The position numbers were made by a program, and so were the translations under genes. From the IMG/VR virus record IMGVR_UViG_3300042539_000116, positions 1 through 23,911 of that record: a stretch of 23,911 bases of DNA, one strand, 5' to 3'. A model generated the notes under the pieces. That model saw only the letters and a list, made by a program, of their open reading frames with translations, was not told where the DNA came from and did not search any database. The DNA is from a virus. Of this stretch, positions 6,762-23,145 are shown piece after piece. The first letter of the stretch is position 1. Every line of letters starts with the position of its first letter.

Positions 6762-8411
6762 TTAAAGTTGAATCAACGAGTTGCCGTTGCGGATAAATTG
6801 CACCACTTGGCCGGTTGTGAACGCAGTGTCTGTTCCAGTCTTCAAAATAAACTTGAAAGCCGCATTGACGCTGTAGTTGTTCTTCAATGTGCAGTTGGTT
6901 GAGAAGTTTAAGTAGAACACCTCAAACTCACCGATCATTGGGTAGTCAATCGCAAGTTCTTCATAAGGACGTATGGAGACAAAGCCTTCCAGCGTTGTCA
7001 ACGTTCCTGTCATCGCGACATCCCAAACATTTGACGATGCTCTGTTGAAATACGCAATGCAATTAGTTGCGGTCACCGTTGTCAAGGTTGTTGCGCCAAT
7101 ATTTACCGGACGATTTCTGTTAAACCCTGCCATTGTTGGGTATTGCAACAGCGTGATCGTATAGTTGTTTGGTAGCAGCGCATCTACTGTGTACCCAGTT
7201 CCTGTGGAGTTCGCGGCATCTATGGCCCACATCTTAATTTCGGCGTTAGTAATAAACTTAGTGCCAGAAAAAGATGAGTTAATTGTTCCACGGCAATCTT
7301 TAGCTGTGACCCAATTCATATCGTTGTCAACCAACAGCAAGTTAGTTGTGATGGTCGGAGGGCGAATGCGCTCAAGATGCAACTGAGCATCGGTAGCAGG
7401 CTGTGTTCCTGTGTAGCGAACAATGGCGTTGGTCGTGCCACTGTCTTGCGAATGTCGCCATCCGTCAATCTTAATGTCGTGAATGTCATAGTCACGAATC
7501 CACATCGCCACAAAATTGTCGCCAGCGTTTTCCGCATAGCAGTCTTGAATGACGATATTGGTAAATCCAATTGCGCCCGTTGCGCCAACAGATGTACCTA
7601 GCTCAAAACCAGCCACAACAGTTCCGCTTGCCTGCATACCGCCAAGAGCAAGATAGCAATACTCAAAGCGAACATCAAGGCAGGTGTCAAACAAGCCAAC
7701 AACAGGATAAAAAGAAGCACCAAGAATATAAAATTCTTGCTGAAACTCGCACATGTTGAAAACTTTGTCGCGGTTTGAATTGGGTACGCTATCGTCTTTG
7801 TAGACTGACGATGGTAAACCGGTGTCCCACACCGATGAGCAATACTGACCACCAAAAATTGAGCCTTCTACAAAAATGCCCTCTGCGCGGGTGTTGATGT
7901 AGGCCGCTTTCAAGAACGGGCCGAACACATAGGCGTTGTAAATTTTGACCTGCTGGCAAGTTGGGCCAGCAGTGATATTCAAGCCCTGAAGCGTGTAGTT
8001 TCCTGGCTCACGGTACAGCATCAAACCGCACACGGGGCGGTTAGCAAGCGAGACAGCCTGCCATGCAGTCAAGTCTAGATAAGACGGGATTTTCAACCCG
8101 TGAATTTCGCCGCTATAGCACGATCCAACTTCGACCACATTCTTGTGAAACCAGTTTGCATCTGGGTCAGGCAAGATGATTGCACCATCGGCAAAGATGC
8201 TAAAAAACCACATGCGGCGAAACGAAATAGTGTCGCTGACGTAATATTTCCCTGGTGGGATGTAGATGGCAACACCAGCTTTTTCAGTTGTTGCTGCGGT
8301 CAATGCTTGGAAAGCAGCAGTGCTGTCAGTTGCACCTGTTGGGTCAGCACCGTAATCAAGGACGTTGTAAGGCGCCCCTTGAATCATGGAGTAGGAAACT
8401 TTTGTCAGCAT
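6762..8411 (-). CDS. Pectate-lyase-fold tailspike / depolymerase-like protein (549 aa)
   Basis: Residues 17-65 carry the signature of the pectate_lyase_3 family: NVLDYGADPTGATDSTAAFQAL, then AIYIPPGKYYVSDTI. This is the first coil of a right-handed parallel beta helix, as in phage tailspikes that bind or cleave surface polysaccharide. A long run of short beta strands with Asn, Asp and Gly turns follows, ending in a beta-rich C-terminal domain (about 410-549). The N-terminus is very short (MLTKVSYSMIQGAP) and lacks a head-binding domain of its own, so it probably attaches through the fibre proteins encoded just upstream. The gene is visibly AT-richer than its neighbours, suggesting exchange. 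Catalytic residues cannot be picked out by eye, so enzyme activity is not proven. Confidence 0.87.
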   Translation of the reverse strand: MLTKVSYSMIQGAPYNVLDYGADPTGATDSTAAFQALTAATTEKAGVAIYIPPGKYYVSDTISFRRMWFFSIFADGAIILPDPDANWFHKNVVEVGSCYSGEIHGLKIPSYLDLTAWQAVSLANRPVCGLMLYREPGNYTLQGLNITAGPTCQQVKIYNAYVFGPFLKAAYINTRAEGIFVEGSIFGGQYCSSVWDTGLPSSVYKDDSVPNSNRDKVFNMCEFQQEFYILGASFYPVVGLFDTCLDVRFEYCYLALGGMQASGTVVAGFELGTSVGATGAIGFTNIVIQDCYAENAGDNFVAMWIRDYDIHDIKIDGWRHSQDSGTTNAIVRYTGTQPATDAQLHLERIRPPTITTNLLLVDNDMNWVTAKDCRGTINSSFSGTKFITNAEIKMWAIDAANSTGTGYTVDALLPNNYTITLLQYPTMAGFNRNRPVNIGATTLTTVTATNCIAYFNRASSNVWDVAMTGTLTTLEGFVSIRPYEELAIDYPMIGEFEVFYLNFSTNCTLKNNYSVNAAFKFILKTGTDTAFTTGQVVQFIRNGNSLIQL

Positions 8412-15701: not shown

Positions 15702-17233
15702 TACGCCCCCATCCAACTGGTTACAGCCCCGCCACTATACCCGCTTGCGGTGCGGATGTGTGACTTTGGCTCACGATACTCTCGGCTGGCGACAGGATAC
15801 GCAAACGTCAGCGCGATGGCGTCTGCTGCGTCCGGTGAGGCCAGACCACGGGCTTTCATGTCCTTTTTGGACTCTAGATAGATCGTACCACGCGAATCGG
15901 GCTTCATCTTAGGCGAAATCAGGTCACTTTTCAAGAACCTGTCGTTGGGCACGCTGGCTGTTTTCAGCCAATCGCGCATATCACCCCACATTTCAGCCCG
16001 TTTGTTGCCGTACATAATGGGGTTTTTGGCCTTGTTGCCAAAGTTAACTCCCCTGACCTTGTACCGCTGCTCTTTAAGCCGGTCCACGACCCCCGCCCCC
16101 AGCCCGCCCTCGTCGATGTTGACCAACGACGGCTTAAATTCCTCAATCGCGTCGATAACGTGCCCGACCACCGTCATGGTGTCGTCGCCCCGGTGCCGGA
16201 TCAGCTTGACGATGTCGCGCCCCTGCCGCACGGCAATGACCGTTGCGTCTGCCCCGAACCGCGCCGGGTCTACGCCGATCACAATTGGTGCCGACTGGTC
16301 CATATGCTTGGCCCGTTTCATCGCCTCATCGACCACGCCAATACTGATGAACTGATCGTCGCCCTCGTTCGGAAACTGACCGTACACCTCGACGTGCGCT
16401 TGTGAAGAGTCCGGCCCGTATTCCGCGATGATCTGCTCGTAAACCGCCTTGTCGGTGCCCTCGACCGTCCTGGCGTCCACTATCTTGGACGCCCAAAACT
16501 CCCGTTTGCTGTTAAACGCCTCGTAGAAGTACCCGGTGTTGCGGCGCGGGTTGGAAAACGCCAGCCAAAAGCGGTTTGGCGTGTTCTCCGTAAAGAATCC
16601 ACTGGTCACCGCCCAGATCGAGTCGTCGATACCACTGGCCTCGTCGAAGATCACCATCACGCCGTCAAAGTTATGCACGCCAGCGTAGGCGTCCGGGTTC
16701 TCGGCCGACCATAGCCGCCCCTCGACGCCCCAGTATCTAGTGCCTTTCTTCAGGTCGCGCTCAACCAGCTCTGTCAGCCACTTGGCCGGCATCAGTCTGG
16801 TAGCGCTTACTTCGAACCAATGGCTGTTGATCGACATCGCCAGCCACTTTGTCAGCTCGGCCCAAGTGATACTGCGGAGCTGGCTTTCTGAGTTGGCCGA
16901 AATAATGGTCGTCGAGCCGATGCGCGTGGACAGCATCCAGTCCGTGATCCAAGACACTAAGGCCGACTTGCCAATACCCCGGCCCGAACTGACCGCCAGA
17001 CGCAGCACGTCGAAGTCCAGCTTGCCGCCGTTCTTCTTGATGTGCTCGGCCATAGTCGCGAGCACCTCGCGCTGCCACTTGCGCGGGCCAGTGAAGTGCT
17101 CCAGCGGCGTGCCCTTGACGCCCCACGGATACGCGAACATCACAAACGCCAGCGGGTTGTCCTTGATCGCCGGGCTCCATAGCCGAGCCATCAGCTCCTG
17201 CTCATCCTGCGCGCTGTAACGTGTGGTCTGCAT
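15701..17233 (-). CDS. terL: Terminase large subunit (510 aa)
   Basis: The packaging ATPase/nuclease. The N-terminal ATPase has a Walker A motif SSGRGIGKSA (82-91), followed by ISANSESQLRS and a Walker B VMVIFDEAS (192-200) with catalytic Glu. A motif III-like SNPRRNTG lies at about 227-234. The C-terminal RNase H-like nuclease shows GVDPARFGAD (320-329, first metal Asp), NIDEGGLGAG (372-381) and SPDAADAIALTFA (466-478). All catalytic regions are present and the length is typical, so it should be active. It overlaps the small subunit by 32 bases and is followed immediately by a basic small gene. It docks on the P22-like portal encoded downstream. Confidence 0.96.
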   Translation of the reverse strand: MQTTRYSAQDEQELMARLWSPAIKDNPLAFVMFAYPWGVKGTPLEHFTGPRKWQREVLATMAEHIKKNGGKLDFDVLRLAVSSGRGIGKSALVSWITDWMLSTRIGSTTIISANSESQLRSITWAELTKWLAMSINSHWFEVSATRLMPAKWLTELVERDLKKGTRYWGVEGRLWSAENPDAYAGVHNFDGVMVIFDEASGIDDSIWAVTSGFFTENTPNRFWLAFSNPRRNTGYFYEAFNSKREFWASKIVDARTVEGTDKAVYEQIIAEYGPDSSQAHVEVYGQFPNEGDDQFISIGVVDEAMKRAKHMDQSAPIVIGVDPARFGADATVIAVRQGRDIVKLIRHRGDDTMTVVGHVIDAIEEFKPSLVNIDEGGLGAGVVDRLKEQRYKVRGVNFGNKAKNPIMYGNKRAEMWGDMRDWLKTASVPNDRFLKSDLISPKMKPDSRGTIYLESKKDMKARGLASPDAADAIALTFAYPVASREYREPKSHIRTASGYSGGAVTSWMGA

Positions 17234-17654
17234 GTTGTAGCACTTGGCTTGGGTTGTTCTCGATTACGTCTACGACGTCCAGTACGCGCCGCTCGGCCTC
17301 TTGTAGCGCCGCTGTGATGCTGATGGACTGGTTCACATCTACTGTAATGGCCTGCTTGGCTACCCAGCCGTGGACGTTCTGGAGGATCGCCAGCGCCGCT
17401 TTGGCGTCGCCCTGCGCTGCGGCGTCGTGCAGCAGGTGGCTCATCTCCAGCTCGCCCTCGGCGCGGCCCTTGAGTTCAGCGTACTCCGCGATCTCGTCAA
17501 ACTGCTTGAGCCTGGCGTACTCCTTGGGCAACATGCCTGCGGCCAACGCCAGGTTGTCGCCCTTAAGGCCGAGCTTGGCAGCCTTGTAGATGCGATGCAG
17601 CCGGTCCTCAGTCGCTTGCAACTGACGCGGCTCATATGGCAGGGTCTCGAACAT
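17202..17654 (-). CDS. terS: Putative terminase small subunit (150 aa)
   Basis: The start at 17652-17654 shares one base with the HNH stop (TAATG); a TTG start two codons earlier is possible but less likely. The protein is helical. An N-terminal part (about 10-65) has AAKLGLKGDNLALAAGMLPKEYARLK, suggesting a helix-turn-helix that would bind DNA, followed by a long charged helix and a short region before the C-terminus. The immediate overlap with the large subunit gene gives the expected order TerS-TerL. Sequence motifs alone do not prove the assignment, because small terminase subunits are poorly conserved. Confidence 0.8.
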   Translation of the reverse strand: MFETLPYEPRQLQATEDRLHRIYKAAKLGLKGDNLALAAGMLPKEYARLKQFDEIAEYAELKGRAEGELEMSHLLHDAAAQGDAKAALAILQNVHGWVAKQAITVDVNQSISITAALQEAERRVLDVVDVIENNPSQVLQHADHTLQRAG

Positions 17655-18136
17655 TACCAAAGCTCCCGCTCAGCGTTTGCGCGCGCTTGGGCAGCGTCTT
17701 CTATTGTGTAGAAGTTCCCTAAAAATTTTCGATTGCCGTTAGCCACGATGTCCGCTCTCCAAGCTTTTTTTAGGCGCCTACCATTACGCAGTGGTCGCAA
17801 GGATACACCTTTTACGCCAGATTGGCTACGCCGCTGCGGGCCCGAGTTGTTGGCGTTTTCAGAGCGCCCTACGTCGCGTAAGTTTTCTATACGGTTGTCG
17901 GTGCGGTTGCGGTTTATATGGTCAATCACACCCGCAGGCCACTGCTTGTACACATACAGCCACGCTAGTCGCTGAGCTGTGTGCGTTCGGCCGTTAAACG
18001 CTATTTGCACATACCCGTCTCGGCTAAGGCCACCAACAACTGAGCCAACGGGCTTAGACCCCCACTTCTTTTTTCGCGTAAACACGCCAGTTGCGGGGTC
18101 GTAGCTAAACGCAGCGCGTAAAAGTTCATGTTCCAT
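17654..18136 (-). CDS. HNH endonuclease with AP2-like DNA-binding domain (160 aa)
   Basis: Residues 10-95 form an HNH_3-type module: FSYDPATGVFTRKKKWGSKP, a TAQRLAWLYVYKQWP block with the first His region, then VIDHINRNRTDNRIENLRDV with the His-Asn core. Residues 103-158 are an AP2-like domain (GVKGVSLRPL, then WRADIVANGNRKFLGNFYTIEDAAQARANAE). This is the classic stand-alone homing-type arrangement. HNH proteins next to terminase genes can also be needed for cleavage of packaged DNA in some phages. The gene is first in the leftward operon, with a promoter so close that the message may start at its ATG. It shares one base with the small terminase. Confidence 0.9.
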   Translation of the reverse strand: MEHELLRAAFSYDPATGVFTRKKKWGSKPVGSVVGGLSRDGYVQIAFNGRTHTAQRLAWLYVYKQWPAGVIDHINRNRTDNRIENLRDVGRSENANNSGPQRRSQSGVKGVSLRPLRNGRRLKKAWRADIVANGNRKFLGNFYTIEDAAQARANAERELW

Positions 18137-18171: not shown

Positions 18172-18220
18172 TAAAAAAATTCGCAGTTTTTGTAGCCCCT
18201 CCGCTGCCGTGACCGGCCAG

Positions 18221-18241
18221 CCCCCGGCCCCCTCCCCCCCC
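18221..18241 (-). other. G-rich tract with quadruplex potential
   Basis: Read on the minus strand, runs of 8, 5 and 5 G are separated by A and CC. The 8-G run can supply two of the four G-tracts needed for an intramolecular quadruplex. It lies about 50 bases upstream of the HNH promoter, on the strand that is its coding strand. Confidence 0.5.
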
Positions 18242-18283
18242 TCGGTTTTGGCCGCGCGCCGCCTGGGCGACGGCCTGGGTCAG

Positions 18284-18350: not shown

Positions 18351-18395
18351 ATGGGTCATTTGGGTCATGGCCGACTGATGACCCAAATGACCCAT
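18351..18395. repeat. Perfect palindrome, 18-bp arms, built from the 9-bp repeat
   Basis: The left arm ATGGGTCATTTGGGTCAT (18351-18368) and its exact reverse complement (18378-18395) are separated by 9 bases. Each arm consists of two direct copies of the 9-bp repeat. No T run follows on either strand, so it does not look like a terminator; a protein-binding site or extruded cruciform is more likely. Confidence 0.85.
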
Positions 18396-18416
18396 AAGGC
18401 GCAAGCCGGGGAATTT

Positions 18417-18459
18417 ATGGGTCATTCTGGGCTTTTTAGGATGACCCATCGAAAAAGCC
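18417..18459. repeat. Two interleaved inverted repeats
   Basis: ATGGGTCAT (18417-18425) pairs with ATGACCCAT (18441-18449), and GGCTTTTT (18430-18437) pairs with AAAAAGCC (18452-18459). The second arm of the first pair lies in the loop of the other, so only one hairpin can form at a time unless they form a pseudoknot. Confidence 0.65.
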
Positions 18460-18689
18460 TTATGAATCAACAAGTTAGGTGCGTCCGAGGCATTTATGGG
18501 TCATCTTGCCAGAAAGTTGATAGAGGCTGACCCCCCCAGCGCGGCGGCTGGCGGCGCCGGTGCAGTCGAGACCGTACACCAAACTGTATACAATATATAT
18601 TTCCCCTTTTCTTACCTATACACTACATGACAATATGACCCAACAAGCCCCGTTTTCATTGGGACCGCGTATGGGTCACGACACCACTT

Positions 18690-18720
18690 CAACACGACCC
18701 AACACGACACAATCTCGACC
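18690..18720 (+). repeat. Tandem 10-bp repeats CAACACGACM
   Basis: CAACACGACC (18690-18699), CAACACGACA (18700-18709) and a diverged third copy (18710-18720) are directly adjacent. They end 15 bases before the -35 box of the rightward promoter, about one helical turn per unit, so they could bind an activator or initiator. Confidence 0.65.
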
Positions 18721-18795: not shown

Positions 18796-19053
18796 ATGCC
18801 CACAAAAGCCCCTCTGTTATCCTTCCCGCACGTCAAAGACCGCCACCATCTCTATGACCTACTTTCCGTGCTCCATGTGCGCGGCGCAATCACACGCAGC
18901 CAGCTTGAGGTCATAAGCCTAGCGGCCGCGCCAGCTTTGCCCGCTCCTGTTGAAGTACATCAGCGCACGCCTAAGGGTGTCGTCTATGTACACGCTGGCG
19001 ACTCATCGTTTCGCGTTAACGTGCGCGCCAAGCTGGTTAGGGTTTATCCCTAG
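18796..19053 (+). CDS. Hypothetical protein, first of the plus-strand cassette (85 aa)
   Basis: I do not recognise it. The ATG is preceded by TGGAG at 6 bases. The protein starts MPTKAPLLSFPHVKDRHHLYDLL, then has VRGAITRSQLEVISLAA, which could be one helix-turn of a DNA-binding domain. A Pro/Ala linker and a basic beta-rich end (GVVYVHAGDSSFRVNVRAKLVRVYP) follow. It is basic overall. As the first gene after the candidate control region it may encode a regulator of it, but that is only a suggestion from position. Confidence 0.7.
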   Translation: MPTKAPLLSFPHVKDRHHLYDLLSVLHVRGAITRSQLEVISLAAAPALPAPVEVHQRTPKGVVYVHAGDSSFRVNVRAKLVRVYP

Positions 19054-19113: not shown

Positions 19114-19311
19114 ATGACCCATACAGACTACATGAGCTTTTTTGAGCGCTGGTTGCAATACCAATTCCCTCGCGCTGAGGATGACTGGTCTAACTTCTAC
19201 ATCTTGCGCGAGGTTGCGCGTGTGGTCGCAGACCCCGACGACCTCGCGCACTGGTCTGGCAGGGATTGCTGGTCTATGTATGACCTCGCAAAACAGACCG
19301 CCAAAATCTAA
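19114..19311 (+). CDS. Hypothetical small acidic protein (65 aa)
   Basis: No family is recognised. The product starts MTHTDYMSFFERWLQYQFPRAEDDWSNFYILREVA and is acidic, aromatic-rich (six Tyr/Phe and four Trp-type residues) and probably helical. TAGGAGC lies 10 bases before the ATG. The first nine bases of the gene, ATGACCCAT, are an exact reverse copy of the 9-bp repeat of the upstream control region. Small, acidic and aromatic phage proteins of early regions often act on host proteins, but no target is suggested by the sequence. Confidence 0.72.
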   Translation: MTHTDYMSFFERWLQYQFPRAEDDWSNFYILREVARVVADPDDLAHWSGRDCWSMYDLAKQTAKI

Positions 19312-20078: not shown

Positions 20079-20203
20079 GACAGCACTACACCCCCGAACC
20101 CCAACGCCGGCCCATTTTTCCGCGCGACTTCCTCGCCGCGCTCATCTTCGCCGCGCTCATCAGCGCGCCCTTCGTCCTTTACTTTTGGAACATGACGCCA
20201 TGA
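20075..20203 (+). CDS. Small single-pass membrane protein (42 aa)
   Basis: The frame runs from the ATG at 20075 (overlapping the previous TGA) to TGA at 20201-20203, which overlaps the next ATG. The product has a basic, Pro-rich N-terminus (MRQHYTPEPQRRPIFPR), then a hydrophobic stretch DFLAALIFAALISAPFVLYF of about 18-20 residues, and ends WNMTP. This topology suggests a single inner-membrane helix with the basic end inside. No signal cleavage site is obvious. Double ATGA overlaps and a GAGG site upstream support that it is translated. A role in host takeover or lysis is possible but unproven. Confidence 0.72.
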   Translation: MRQHYTPEPQRRPIFPRDFLAALIFAALISAPFVLYFWNMTP

Positions 20204-20523
20204 TTACCATCACCCACGAAAAAGCCACGTTTACAGTCAAACCCGAAAACGCCGAACCGACGCGCGAACTACTGGCGCTGATTGACAAGTCCAAAGGGCG
20301 CAAGGGCGCCAAGTTGACCCGGCCCAAGGGCCATGTTAAGCACGATAGCAGTAAACGCCATTTCCCGGCGTTTGCGCCCGGCATGACGACGTCGGACTAT
20401 GTCGCACGCTACGCGGCCTTGAACGGCCATTTAAGCCTTGCCAAGGTGGATTACGAGCACGCCGACAGGCCAGCGGCCATGTATGACCCGACGCAGCCGG
20501 AAGTTGAGGAGTTGCCATGCTGA
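20200..20523 (+). CDS. Hypothetical basic protein (107 aa)
   Basis: The ATG at 20200 overlaps the previous stop by ATGA and gives MITITHEKATFTVKPENAEPTRELLALID, a short beta hairpin followed by a helix. A basic middle follows (KSKGRKGAKLTRPKGHVKHDSSKRHFP) and then TTSDYVARYAALNGHLSLAKVDYEH. The basic central patch could bind nucleic acid. Longer in-frame starts lie inside the two previous genes and are rejected. The stop is overlapped by the next ATG by 7 bases. No family is recognised. Confidence 0.72.
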   Translation: MITITHEKATFTVKPENAEPTRELLALIDKSKGRKGAKLTRPKGHVKHDSSKRHFPAFAPGMTTSDYVARYAALNGHLSLAKVDYEHADRPAAMYDPTQPEVEELPC

Positions 20524-20838: not shown

Positions 20839-23145
20839 TTACTTCACCCGCACCATAGACGGCGCCGGCGCGTCCTCCACAAGCCGGCGCAGGTCCGACT
20901 TCGTGTAGTCGGCCATCGACGGATGGCAATAGATGTTTTTCTTCGACGGGTAGTCGGCCGACGCAAGCCGGCCCATGTTGACCCAGCCGGCCTCCTTGAG
21001 CGCGTGCAGGAGCGCAGCTTGCGGCACCTTCACGCCCGACGGCGCAGACGCTGCTACGCGGTCGCACAAGGCGTGGAATGGGCTTCCGACGGCGCCGCGC
21101 GCGAACTCACCCCGACGCGCGCGCATCATCTCGACCAGGTAGCTTTCGGCAATGCTCATGCCATGCTCGACCAGGTTCGCTTTAAATTCAGTCCAAGCCG
21201 GCGCGGCCGACGGATTGAAGGCCGACACGTCACGGGCGCGCAGCCAGGCGGCGACGGCCTCATACCCGCCGGCCTTGTACCAAGCCCACAGTCGGGCGGC
21301 GGCGTCTGGCGCCATCCGAGGCGCCGAGGACCAGACGCAAAACCAGCGGCGGTCCTGACTGTCGATTGTGATCGGCACCGGGTCATTAGAAAACGCCAGC
21401 ACGAACATGCGATTAAGCGAATCGTACGGATGCAGCCCCTTGCGGTTGACCGTGAGCATGTCGGGCGGCGCGGCAATGATAGGCTTGAGCTTGTTTGCCA
21501 GGGCGCGGCGCTCCTTGGCCTCGGGCTCCTTCAGCTCGTTGAGGATCAAAATCTCGGACTCCAGCGCGTAGCCCCACTGTGACCCAAGCGTGTCATTGTC
21601 GAGCAGACCCCGGTTTTTCAGTTGCGGCCCGCACACGGCCCAGATAAACGGCGCCCATAGCGTATCTTTGCCGCAACCCTGATCGCCGCCATGCAGGACC
21701 GCGTGGTTGATCTTGATCTCGGGATGCTGGACCTTGTACGCCATCACGTTAAAAATATGCTCGCGCTCGGACGCCTCGGGCACCAGCGCCGCGCAGTGAT
21801 CCAGCCAGGGCGAGATATCGGCGCCGGCAGCGCCTACGGCCGGGCGGGCGTCGCGCCAGCGGTTACCGTACACGTCACCATCCCGCGCCACCAGCACGCC
21901 CTCACCGGCGGCGTAGGTGATGCCGACGAGCGCCTTGGCGCCCATGTCTTGGCGGTTCTCGTCGAAGCAATACGACGCTTCGATCTTGGGGCGCTTGCCG
22001 AACAGCGAGCGGCACTCGATGTGCCGGAACAGCGCATTAAAGGTCGAGCGGCTGATCTCGCGGCGGTCTTGCAAGTCGAAGTAGTGGTCACCCTCTTGGA
22101 CGTAGCAGAACCGTTTGTACCAATCAGCCTTCTCGGTGCGGCCCAACTCCTTGCGCTCGACCTCGGCGATCACGCGCTTGGCCTCATCGGGGAACGCCTC
22201 GGTGGGGTGCAGCTTGCCCAGCGCATCAGTCATCATCGACGCCAGCAGCTCATCGCGCAGGCCCGGCGCATGGTGGGGCCCGCCCTGCTCGCCGACCCAC
22301 TTCAAAAACGTCACGCTGTCCAAGTCGATGCAGTGCGAGTGTAGGCAGCAAAACGCCCGCATGGACGGGTTATAACGCCCCTCCGGGTTGCCGTCGCTAT
22401 GCTCGCTAGAGTTAGGGCAGACGATGCCGGCCCAGCCCTGTCCATTGGGCTTGCTAAGCACCAGCCCCTGATCGGATAGCCAGGCCAGCACGTCATCGGC
22501 GCCGTCGTCAGAGACGCGGATCGGGCGAAACGTTGCGGCCTCCTCGGTTGGGGTGACGCCAAGGGCCTCGCATATCTGGGGCAGGCTGAACTGGCGCTCG
22601 GGGTGGAACTCGACCAACCGCGAGACGAACCCGTCACGGCCAGGCTTGAGGTTGACGCTGCCAGGCAGTCGAAAGTTCCGCACGGGGTTGACCGCGCCCT
22701 TGTCGCTGTAACCGGCAGCGGCGATGGCCGTGATGGCCGCGCTGTACTCGGCCTTGGTCGGCTGTTCCTCGGTGAAGGCGTAGCCCCACTGGTAGCTGCC
22801 CTCGCTCGTCTCCATGACCCACGTCGGGGCCAGCGGCGGCGTCTTGGGCGCCTTCTCAGGGTCGCCCACGTCGTCCAGCACCATGCACAAGACGTACTCG
22901 CAGTTGGCGGCCGAGGCGCTGATCTTGCCGTCGGTGAAGCGGTCAAGGATGAAGCTGGCGGTGTTGCCGTACCACGACTGCCCGTCGGGCCGGGGCTTGT
23001 TGGGCAAGAACGCCGGCCAGGTGGCCTTGACCGCCCCGTCGGCGTGCAGTTGTATCTCGCCGTCTCTGATCTGTGGCTTTTGCCTAACAATCAGAAACGT
23101 CTCGCCCTCAGGGGCCAGAGATATGCAATAATCCAAGAAATCCAT
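20839..23145 (-). CDS. Primase-helicase fusion protein (768 aa)
   Basis: The N-terminal part (about 1-190) resembles AEP-type primase-polymerases of phages and plasmids, with VLCMVLDDVGD (86-96), SEGSYQWGYAF (114-124) and NPVRNFRLPGSVNLKPG (153-169). A putative zinc site follows, with C243 and H249 and then C266, C267, H269, H271 and C272. The C-terminal half is a superfamily 3-type/DUF5906 helicase: Walker A HGGDQGCGKDT (485-495), Walker B-like EILILNEL (531-538), and the motif FSNDPVPITIDSQDRRWF (585-602). AAAGGAG stands 8 bases before the ATG. It would prime and unwind for the adjacent family A polymerase. Confidence 0.87.
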   Translation of the reverse strand: MDFLDYCISLAPEGETFLIVRQKPQIRDGEIQLHADGAVKATWPAFLPNKPRPDGQSWYGNTASFILDRFTDGKISASAANCEYVLCMVLDDVGDPEKAPKTPPLAPTWVMETSEGSYQWGYAFTEEQPTKAEYSAAITAIAAAGYSDKGAVNPVRNFRLPGSVNLKPGRDGFVSRLVEFHPERQFSLPQICEALGVTPTEEAATFRPIRVSDDGADDVLAWLSDQGLVLSKPNGQGWAGIVCPNSSEHSDGNPEGRYNPSMRAFCCLHSHCIDLDSVTFLKWVGEQGGPHHAPGLRDELLASMMTDALGKLHPTEAFPDEAKRVIAEVERKELGRTEKADWYKRFCYVQEGDHYFDLQDRREISRSTFNALFRHIECRSLFGKRPKIEASYCFDENRQDMGAKALVGITYAAGEGVLVARDGDVYGNRWRDARPAVGAAGADISPWLDHCAALVPEASEREHIFNVMAYKVQHPEIKINHAVLHGGDQGCGKDTLWAPFIWAVCGPQLKNRGLLDNDTLGSQWGYALESEILILNELKEPEAKERRALANKLKPIIAAPPDMLTVNRKGLHPYDSLNRMFVLAFSNDPVPITIDSQDRRWFCVWSSAPRMAPDAAARLWAWYKAGGYEAVAAWLRARDVSAFNPSAAPAWTEFKANLVEHGMSIAESYLVEMMRARRGEFARGAVGSPFHALCDRVAASAPSGVKVPQAALLHALKEAGWVNMGRLASADYPSKKNIYCHPSMADYTKSDLRRLVEDAPAPSMVRVK

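Follow-up and report, generated by a model that had tools for sequence, protein, structure and literature searches.

What does a tight cluster of one short word do in the genome of an uncultured phage, and which protein reads it? The question is posed by IMG/VR virus record IMGVR_UViG_3300042539_000116, whose entire 23,911 bases were analysed here (hereafter the window). An initial annotation of this DNA had pointed to at least nine copies of a 9-bp motif in both orientations and had proposed that one of the phage's own genes encodes the binding protein. On the basis of sequence comparisons, we consider it probable that the cluster is an array of replication-origin iterons recognized by the primase-helicase that the same phage encodes.

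An ordered array around an AT-rich tract

Eight exact copies of the word TGGGTCAT begin at positions 18352, 18361, 18418 and 18497 on the plus strand and at 18378, 18387, 18441 and 18635 on the minus strand, and together with a one-mismatch copy they fall within positions 18352-18679. The arrangement also agrees with the initial annotation, in that some copies are in tandem at 9-bp spacing (18352/18361 and 18378/18387), others are inverted, and distances of 55 and 139 bp occur within the cluster. Positions 18351-18368 and 18378-18395 form a perfect 18-bp inverted repeat. The groups of sites, the mismatched copies and the surrounding features are listed in Table 1.

The earlier suggestion that this density exceeds chance was borne out by permutation. 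No 8-mer occurred more than four times per 330 bp in 200 dinucleotide shuffles, compared with the eight copies of TGGGTCAT observed. Counted over the whole record, the word is present 10 times against a shuffle mean of 0.53 and a largest value of 3 (200 dinucleotide shuffles), and 35 times when one mismatch is allowed, where 14.8 ± 3.9 are expected. Only two exact copies lie outside the array, at 19114 and 22814 (both on the minus strand), and no second array of this kind was seen within the window. GC skew across the window gave no clear origin signal.

Relatives keep the site and exchange the word

Related loci were collected by a search with terL (80 loci) and by three further searches, which brought the collection to approximately 200; they are designated by L and a number, and the window itself by WIN. 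Most relatives with sufficient upstream sequence carry an array at the matching place, approximately 0.5-1.1 kb upstream of terL. The repeated word varies, being ATGACCCAA in many loci and TTGTCCACA, ATGACCCA(A) (class A), TTG[T/C]CCACA, TGAC[C/T/A]CACA or rarer forms in others. Log-likelihood ratios for the words are mostly 20-64, compared with a maximum of 17.7 in Markov-shuffled regions, although a minority of loci fall inside this null range.

A common layout recurs across word types, with outer sites, a gap of approximately 100-145 bp, and then pairs of tandem sites spaced by 9-10 bp. A four-site dyad or quartet (< 9 < 18-20 > 9/10 >) is present in relatives of three word types, and the longest gap of the array is occupied by an AT-rich tract in relatives too. 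Because position and layout are shared among word types, the place of the array evidently persists while its word is exchanged.

The primase-helicase tail changes with the word

When close relatives that differ in word are paired, the last ~45 residues of their primase-helicases differ and the remainder is nearly identical. For example, the window and L088, whose word is TTGTCCACA rather than TGGGTCAT, have primase bodies that are 98% identical (99.3% across the 560 aa preceding the tail), TerL proteins that are 100% identical, TerS proteins at 97% and polymerase fragments at 94%, whereas their tails share 50% identity. Of the sequences compared, the tail sorts the loci by word, which the primase body, the polymerase, TerS and TerL fail to do. 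Tail and word have likewise both switched between L008 and L009 (97.7% identical over the same stretch ahead of the tail) and between L105 and L239 (97.5%). Over the final ~140 nt of the primase-helicase gene the DNA sequences diverge, and from the stop codon they are alike again, which suggests that the tail is exchanged by recombination.

These comparisons bear on two other readings of the array. One is that it forms a packaging (pac) site for the adjacent small terminase, as its location directly upstream of terS in relatives might indicate; however, the window TerS shares 97-99% identity with its counterparts in L088, L089 and L098, loci that all carry other words, and the chance that this reading is correct appears negligible. 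The other is that the sites are boxes for host DnaA. The type-B word TTGTCCACA resembles a DnaA box, but the word of the window does not fit one. Moreover, words switch between near-identical phages along with a phage protein, and 26 virus records of the group contain no DnaA DNA-binding domain (PF08299), the one example being in the distant relative MW202483.1. We therefore regard recognition by host DnaA as very improbable.

Tail class agrees with word in 120 of 122 loci, which comprise all those with a long enough primase body and a clear word call. Confirmation on new cases comes from loci that were not in the first set, counted where a word had four or more copies, with tail A predicting word A in 27 of 27, tail D predicting word D in 22 of 22, and tail B predicting word B in 40 of 42 plus one tie. 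Switches were placed on a tree built from the primase body without the tail. Class A switched eight times independently and the word was concordant each time (8/8; sign test, p 0.008), and for class B seven to nine of nine switches were concordant and none opposed (median p 0.004). Within the tail, a wing arginine (KSR/ASR) pairs with words that end in ACA; ACA-containing words are present in 102 of 107 loci that have the arginine and in 2 of 52 that lack it, a count that omits CTAAC-type words. Across distinct tail sequences, the sole way in which kinship was handled, the association is 36/41 versus 2/17 (p 5.6e-8).

A set of 8-9 bp words clustered in a divergent intergenic region would also fit an operator array, and the comparison covered fetched regions rather than whole genomes. 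The sites might be operators of a repressor or early regulator that is encoded elsewhere in the phage and co-inherited with the primase tail. Against this, only the tail tracks the word among the proteins tested, over eight independent switches, and each switch would need two unlinked exchanges to coincide. Such operators seem improbable to us.

A winged-helix domain is predicted at the variable end

Profile searches match the primase-helicase to PF19263, weakly to RepB_primase, and to phrog_1156 (DNA primase). The best match is the C-terminal helicase region of NrS-1 (PDB 6k9c), both by sequence (E 1.5e-9) and by fold (E 8.6e-13). By fold it also matches the archaeo-eukaryotic primase (AEP) PrimPol domain 6zp9 (E 3.1e-6) and the SaPI5 Pri-Rep structures 7ola and 7pds. 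The window protein is thus a superfamily 3 (SF3)/D5-type helicase fused to a primase.

The tail is modelled as a winged helix with a predicted local distance difference test score (pLDDT) of 84, and full-length and domain models alike place the variable stretch in the beta-hairpin that follows the second helix of this fold. A Foldseek search with the C-terminal domain alone returned nothing significant (best E 0.13). Matches listed by VIA-align 2 were for the most part winged-helix domains of a generic kind (Z 4-6) and did not include the origin-binding domain of phage P4. The model and the covariation together support a putative iteron-specific binding role of the C-terminal domain.

A candidate self-loading initiator and a probable origin

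One protein here combines a ring helicase with a primase-like part and a winged helix, and the array sets paired words around an AT-rich tract; together they resemble an initiator that loads itself and the origin it serves. We infer that the enzyme physically binds the array, that the AT-rich tract is melted, and that replication starts there. Under this proposal, the C-terminal winged-helix domain would bind the 9-bp words, and the choice of word would be made by the hairpin of the wing, which reads GRLASADYPSKKN in the window. Copies of the primase-helicase would assemble at the paired sites on either side of the AT-rich tract and melt this tract, after which they would load as hexamers and begin unwinding and priming. 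Repeated recombination would change specificity by swapping the array and the short segment at the tail, with no change to the remainder of the enzyme or to the terminase and polymerase genes nearby.

The strongest alternative retains the same binding protein but assigns it a different role, in which the primase-helicase binds the array chiefly as a regulator of copy number or of early transcription, with replication beginning elsewhere. This reading gains from the placement of the array between two divergent transcription units, and from LexA-like boxes, usually promoter elements, in the same tract of 16 array regions. Nevertheless, a binding domain linked to a helicase fits an origin, as do sites paired about an AT-rich tract, and no other array was seen in the window. 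We judge a chiefly regulatory role to be unlikely, albeit less so than the other alternatives.

Several observations count against an origin read by the primase-helicase. The array (18351-18701) lies ~2.1 kb past the primase gene, whose end is at 20839, and small genes occupy the interval. L098 and L176 are mismatches among the 122 scored loci. Of the 152 new loci whose tail is of class A, B or D, 26 have no more than three copies of any one of these words. The patterns that define tail and word classes were set after viewing data that included the 'new' loci, and hence the agreement seen there is not a blind test. A co-inherited gene could also lie outside the regions fetched for comparison. 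Finally, a second word, CACTAACTTA, is independent of the primase tail in some loci.

One clade of relatives (L026, L032, L035, L043, L055, L165, L185 and others) has this second word in the array region or close to it, and its sites are perhaps bound by another protein.

Neighbouring genes and other sequence elements

The window encodes P22-like coat and portal genes. The array takes up much of an intergenic region that has an HNH endonuclease gene and a putative terS to its left and, to its right, small genes that form a divergent operon (Table 1). When genomes were scanned for hosts, the only matches were short contigs from metagenome bins, of which several were betaproteobacterial.

Table 1. 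Positions of the array and of nearby features in the window
Feature	Positions	Strand	Remarks
Putative small terminase TerS	17202..17660	-	Assigned by position alone; word not tracked; no PHROG or Pfam match
HNH endonuclease gene	17654-18136	-	PF13392; between terS and array
Degenerate copy TGGGTCAG	18276..18283	+	One mismatch; outside the range first annotated; possibly no true site
Central quartet	18351..18395		Tandem + sites (18352, 18361) facing tandem - sites (18378, 18387); 9-bp spacer
Iterons	18418-18425, 18441-18448	+, -	Exact TGGGTCAT
Iteron	18497..18504	+	Exact TGGGTCAT; final site ahead of AT-rich tract
AT-rich tract	18575..18634		Lies within the longest gap (139 bp) between sites; relatives peak in AT at the corresponding gap; candidate DNA-unwinding element
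Outer iterons	18635..18701	-, +, -	18635-18642 (-, exact), 18672-18679 (+, one mismatch, TGGGTCAC), 18694-18701 (-, one mismatch, TGGGTCGT)
85-aa protein	18796..19053	+	First open reading frame of divergent operon
Primase-helicase	20839..23145	-	AEP-like N-terminal part, NrS-1/D5-type helicase with DUF5906, C-terminal winged helix; probable array binder
Switching segment	20839..20985	-	Residues 721-768; wing hairpin and last helix; wing GRLASADYPSKKN

The initial annotation had named the 85-aa protein as a possible binder. Its broader idea of a phage-encoded protein probably stands, but it is the primase-helicase tail that tracks the word. Relatives of the 85-aa protein occur in only seven loci, which carry four different words (A, D, E and F), and it is absent from the close relatives L086, L009, L015 and L016, which have the same word as the window. 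Because the majority of array-bearing loci lack this protein, it was rejected. A small conserved basic protein (20202-20523) is similar between loci with different words, such as WIN and L003, and therefore is not the specificity determinant.

At the place corresponding to the HNH gene, no DNA match was found among the close relatives compared. A stretch of ~55-70 bp beside the array (~18183-18243) is 79-89% identical in many of these relatives irrespective of word. As the first long gene of the divergent operon, relatives have one of two seemingly unrelated proteins of ~220-260 aa (clusters 26 and 36), which alternate independently of the word.

LexA-like CTGT-N8-ACAG boxes are found in the AT-rich tract, with 16 in 55 kb of array regions versus 11 in 685 kb elsewhere. 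The array regions concerned are those of L003, L004, L005, L008, L010, L011, L012, L014, L016, L017, L028, L044, L045, L050, L071 and L081; the window has only a half-like sequence of this type, CTGTATAC. The distant relative MW202483.1 (L083) encodes a protein resembling the DnaA C-terminal domain at 7083-7379 (PF08299, E 3.4e-19) and carries its own array with a different word, TTTACGTAAA.

Comparison with known replication systems

Systems that combine an iteron origin with a primase-helicase are already known. In phage-inducible chromosomal islands (PICIs), two iteron sets lie on either side of an AT-rich region (PMC6092414), and the Rep helicases of Staphylococcus aureus pathogenicity islands (SaPIs) recognize origin iterons through their C-terminal domain (PMC7581432). 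The window shares with these Rep (Pri-Rep) systems a helicase fused or linked to a primase, a C-terminal domain predicted to read iterons, and two iteron sets flanking an AT-rich tract. It differs in several respects. The window system resides in phages with P22-like head genes, and its array occupies the intergenic region between terS and the early operon, ~2.1 kb from the primase gene, whereas SaPI and PICI origins are directly 3' of rep. It also has a quartet of 9-bp tandem sites, and its group exhibits many natural specificity switches confined to a ~45-aa tail.

The RepA protein of PLE, a Vibrio satellite of phage ICP1, has a DNA-binding domain that covaries with the origin iterons through repeated swapping while the rest is conserved (PMC8263062). 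The likeness lies in this covariation by swapping; PLE RepA, however, is a RepA_N initiator from another protein family, with three ~30-bp iterons and few alleles. Phage P4 offers a further comparison, as its alpha protein likewise binds iterons of a replication origin (ori/crr). The binding domain of alpha is located at its C terminus, and the iteron sequence and layout of ori/crr differ from those of the window array; the C-terminal domain of the window protein gave winged-helix matches only. The NrS-1 primase-polymerase and poxvirus D5 share the helicase core, and the portions of their literature consulted report no iteron array of the window kind, although none was sought.

Within the literature searched, four elements are new: that this phage group has such a system, that the array and the primase gene are apart, that the sites form a quartet, and that so many natural switches of specificity are confined to a short wing segment.

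Implications for phage replication specificity

The findings suggest a replication start site for a widespread, uncultured group of freshwater phages. They also provide a natural collection of enzymes matched to arrays, well over a hundred pairs in all, in which a DNA word changes together with a very short stretch of protein, and thus a recognition code for replication initiators becomes readable. In addition, they raise the question of what makes origin specificity switch so often. We tentatively propose, as a possibility with somewhat less than an even chance of being correct, that the wing hairpin acts as a specificity cassette that recombination can exchange and that is under diversifying selection, which would place near-identical, co-circulating phages in separate replication-specificity groups. 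Such groups would perhaps avoid cross-talk between co-infecting phages or escape parasites that target origins, as for PLE and the Odn nuclease.
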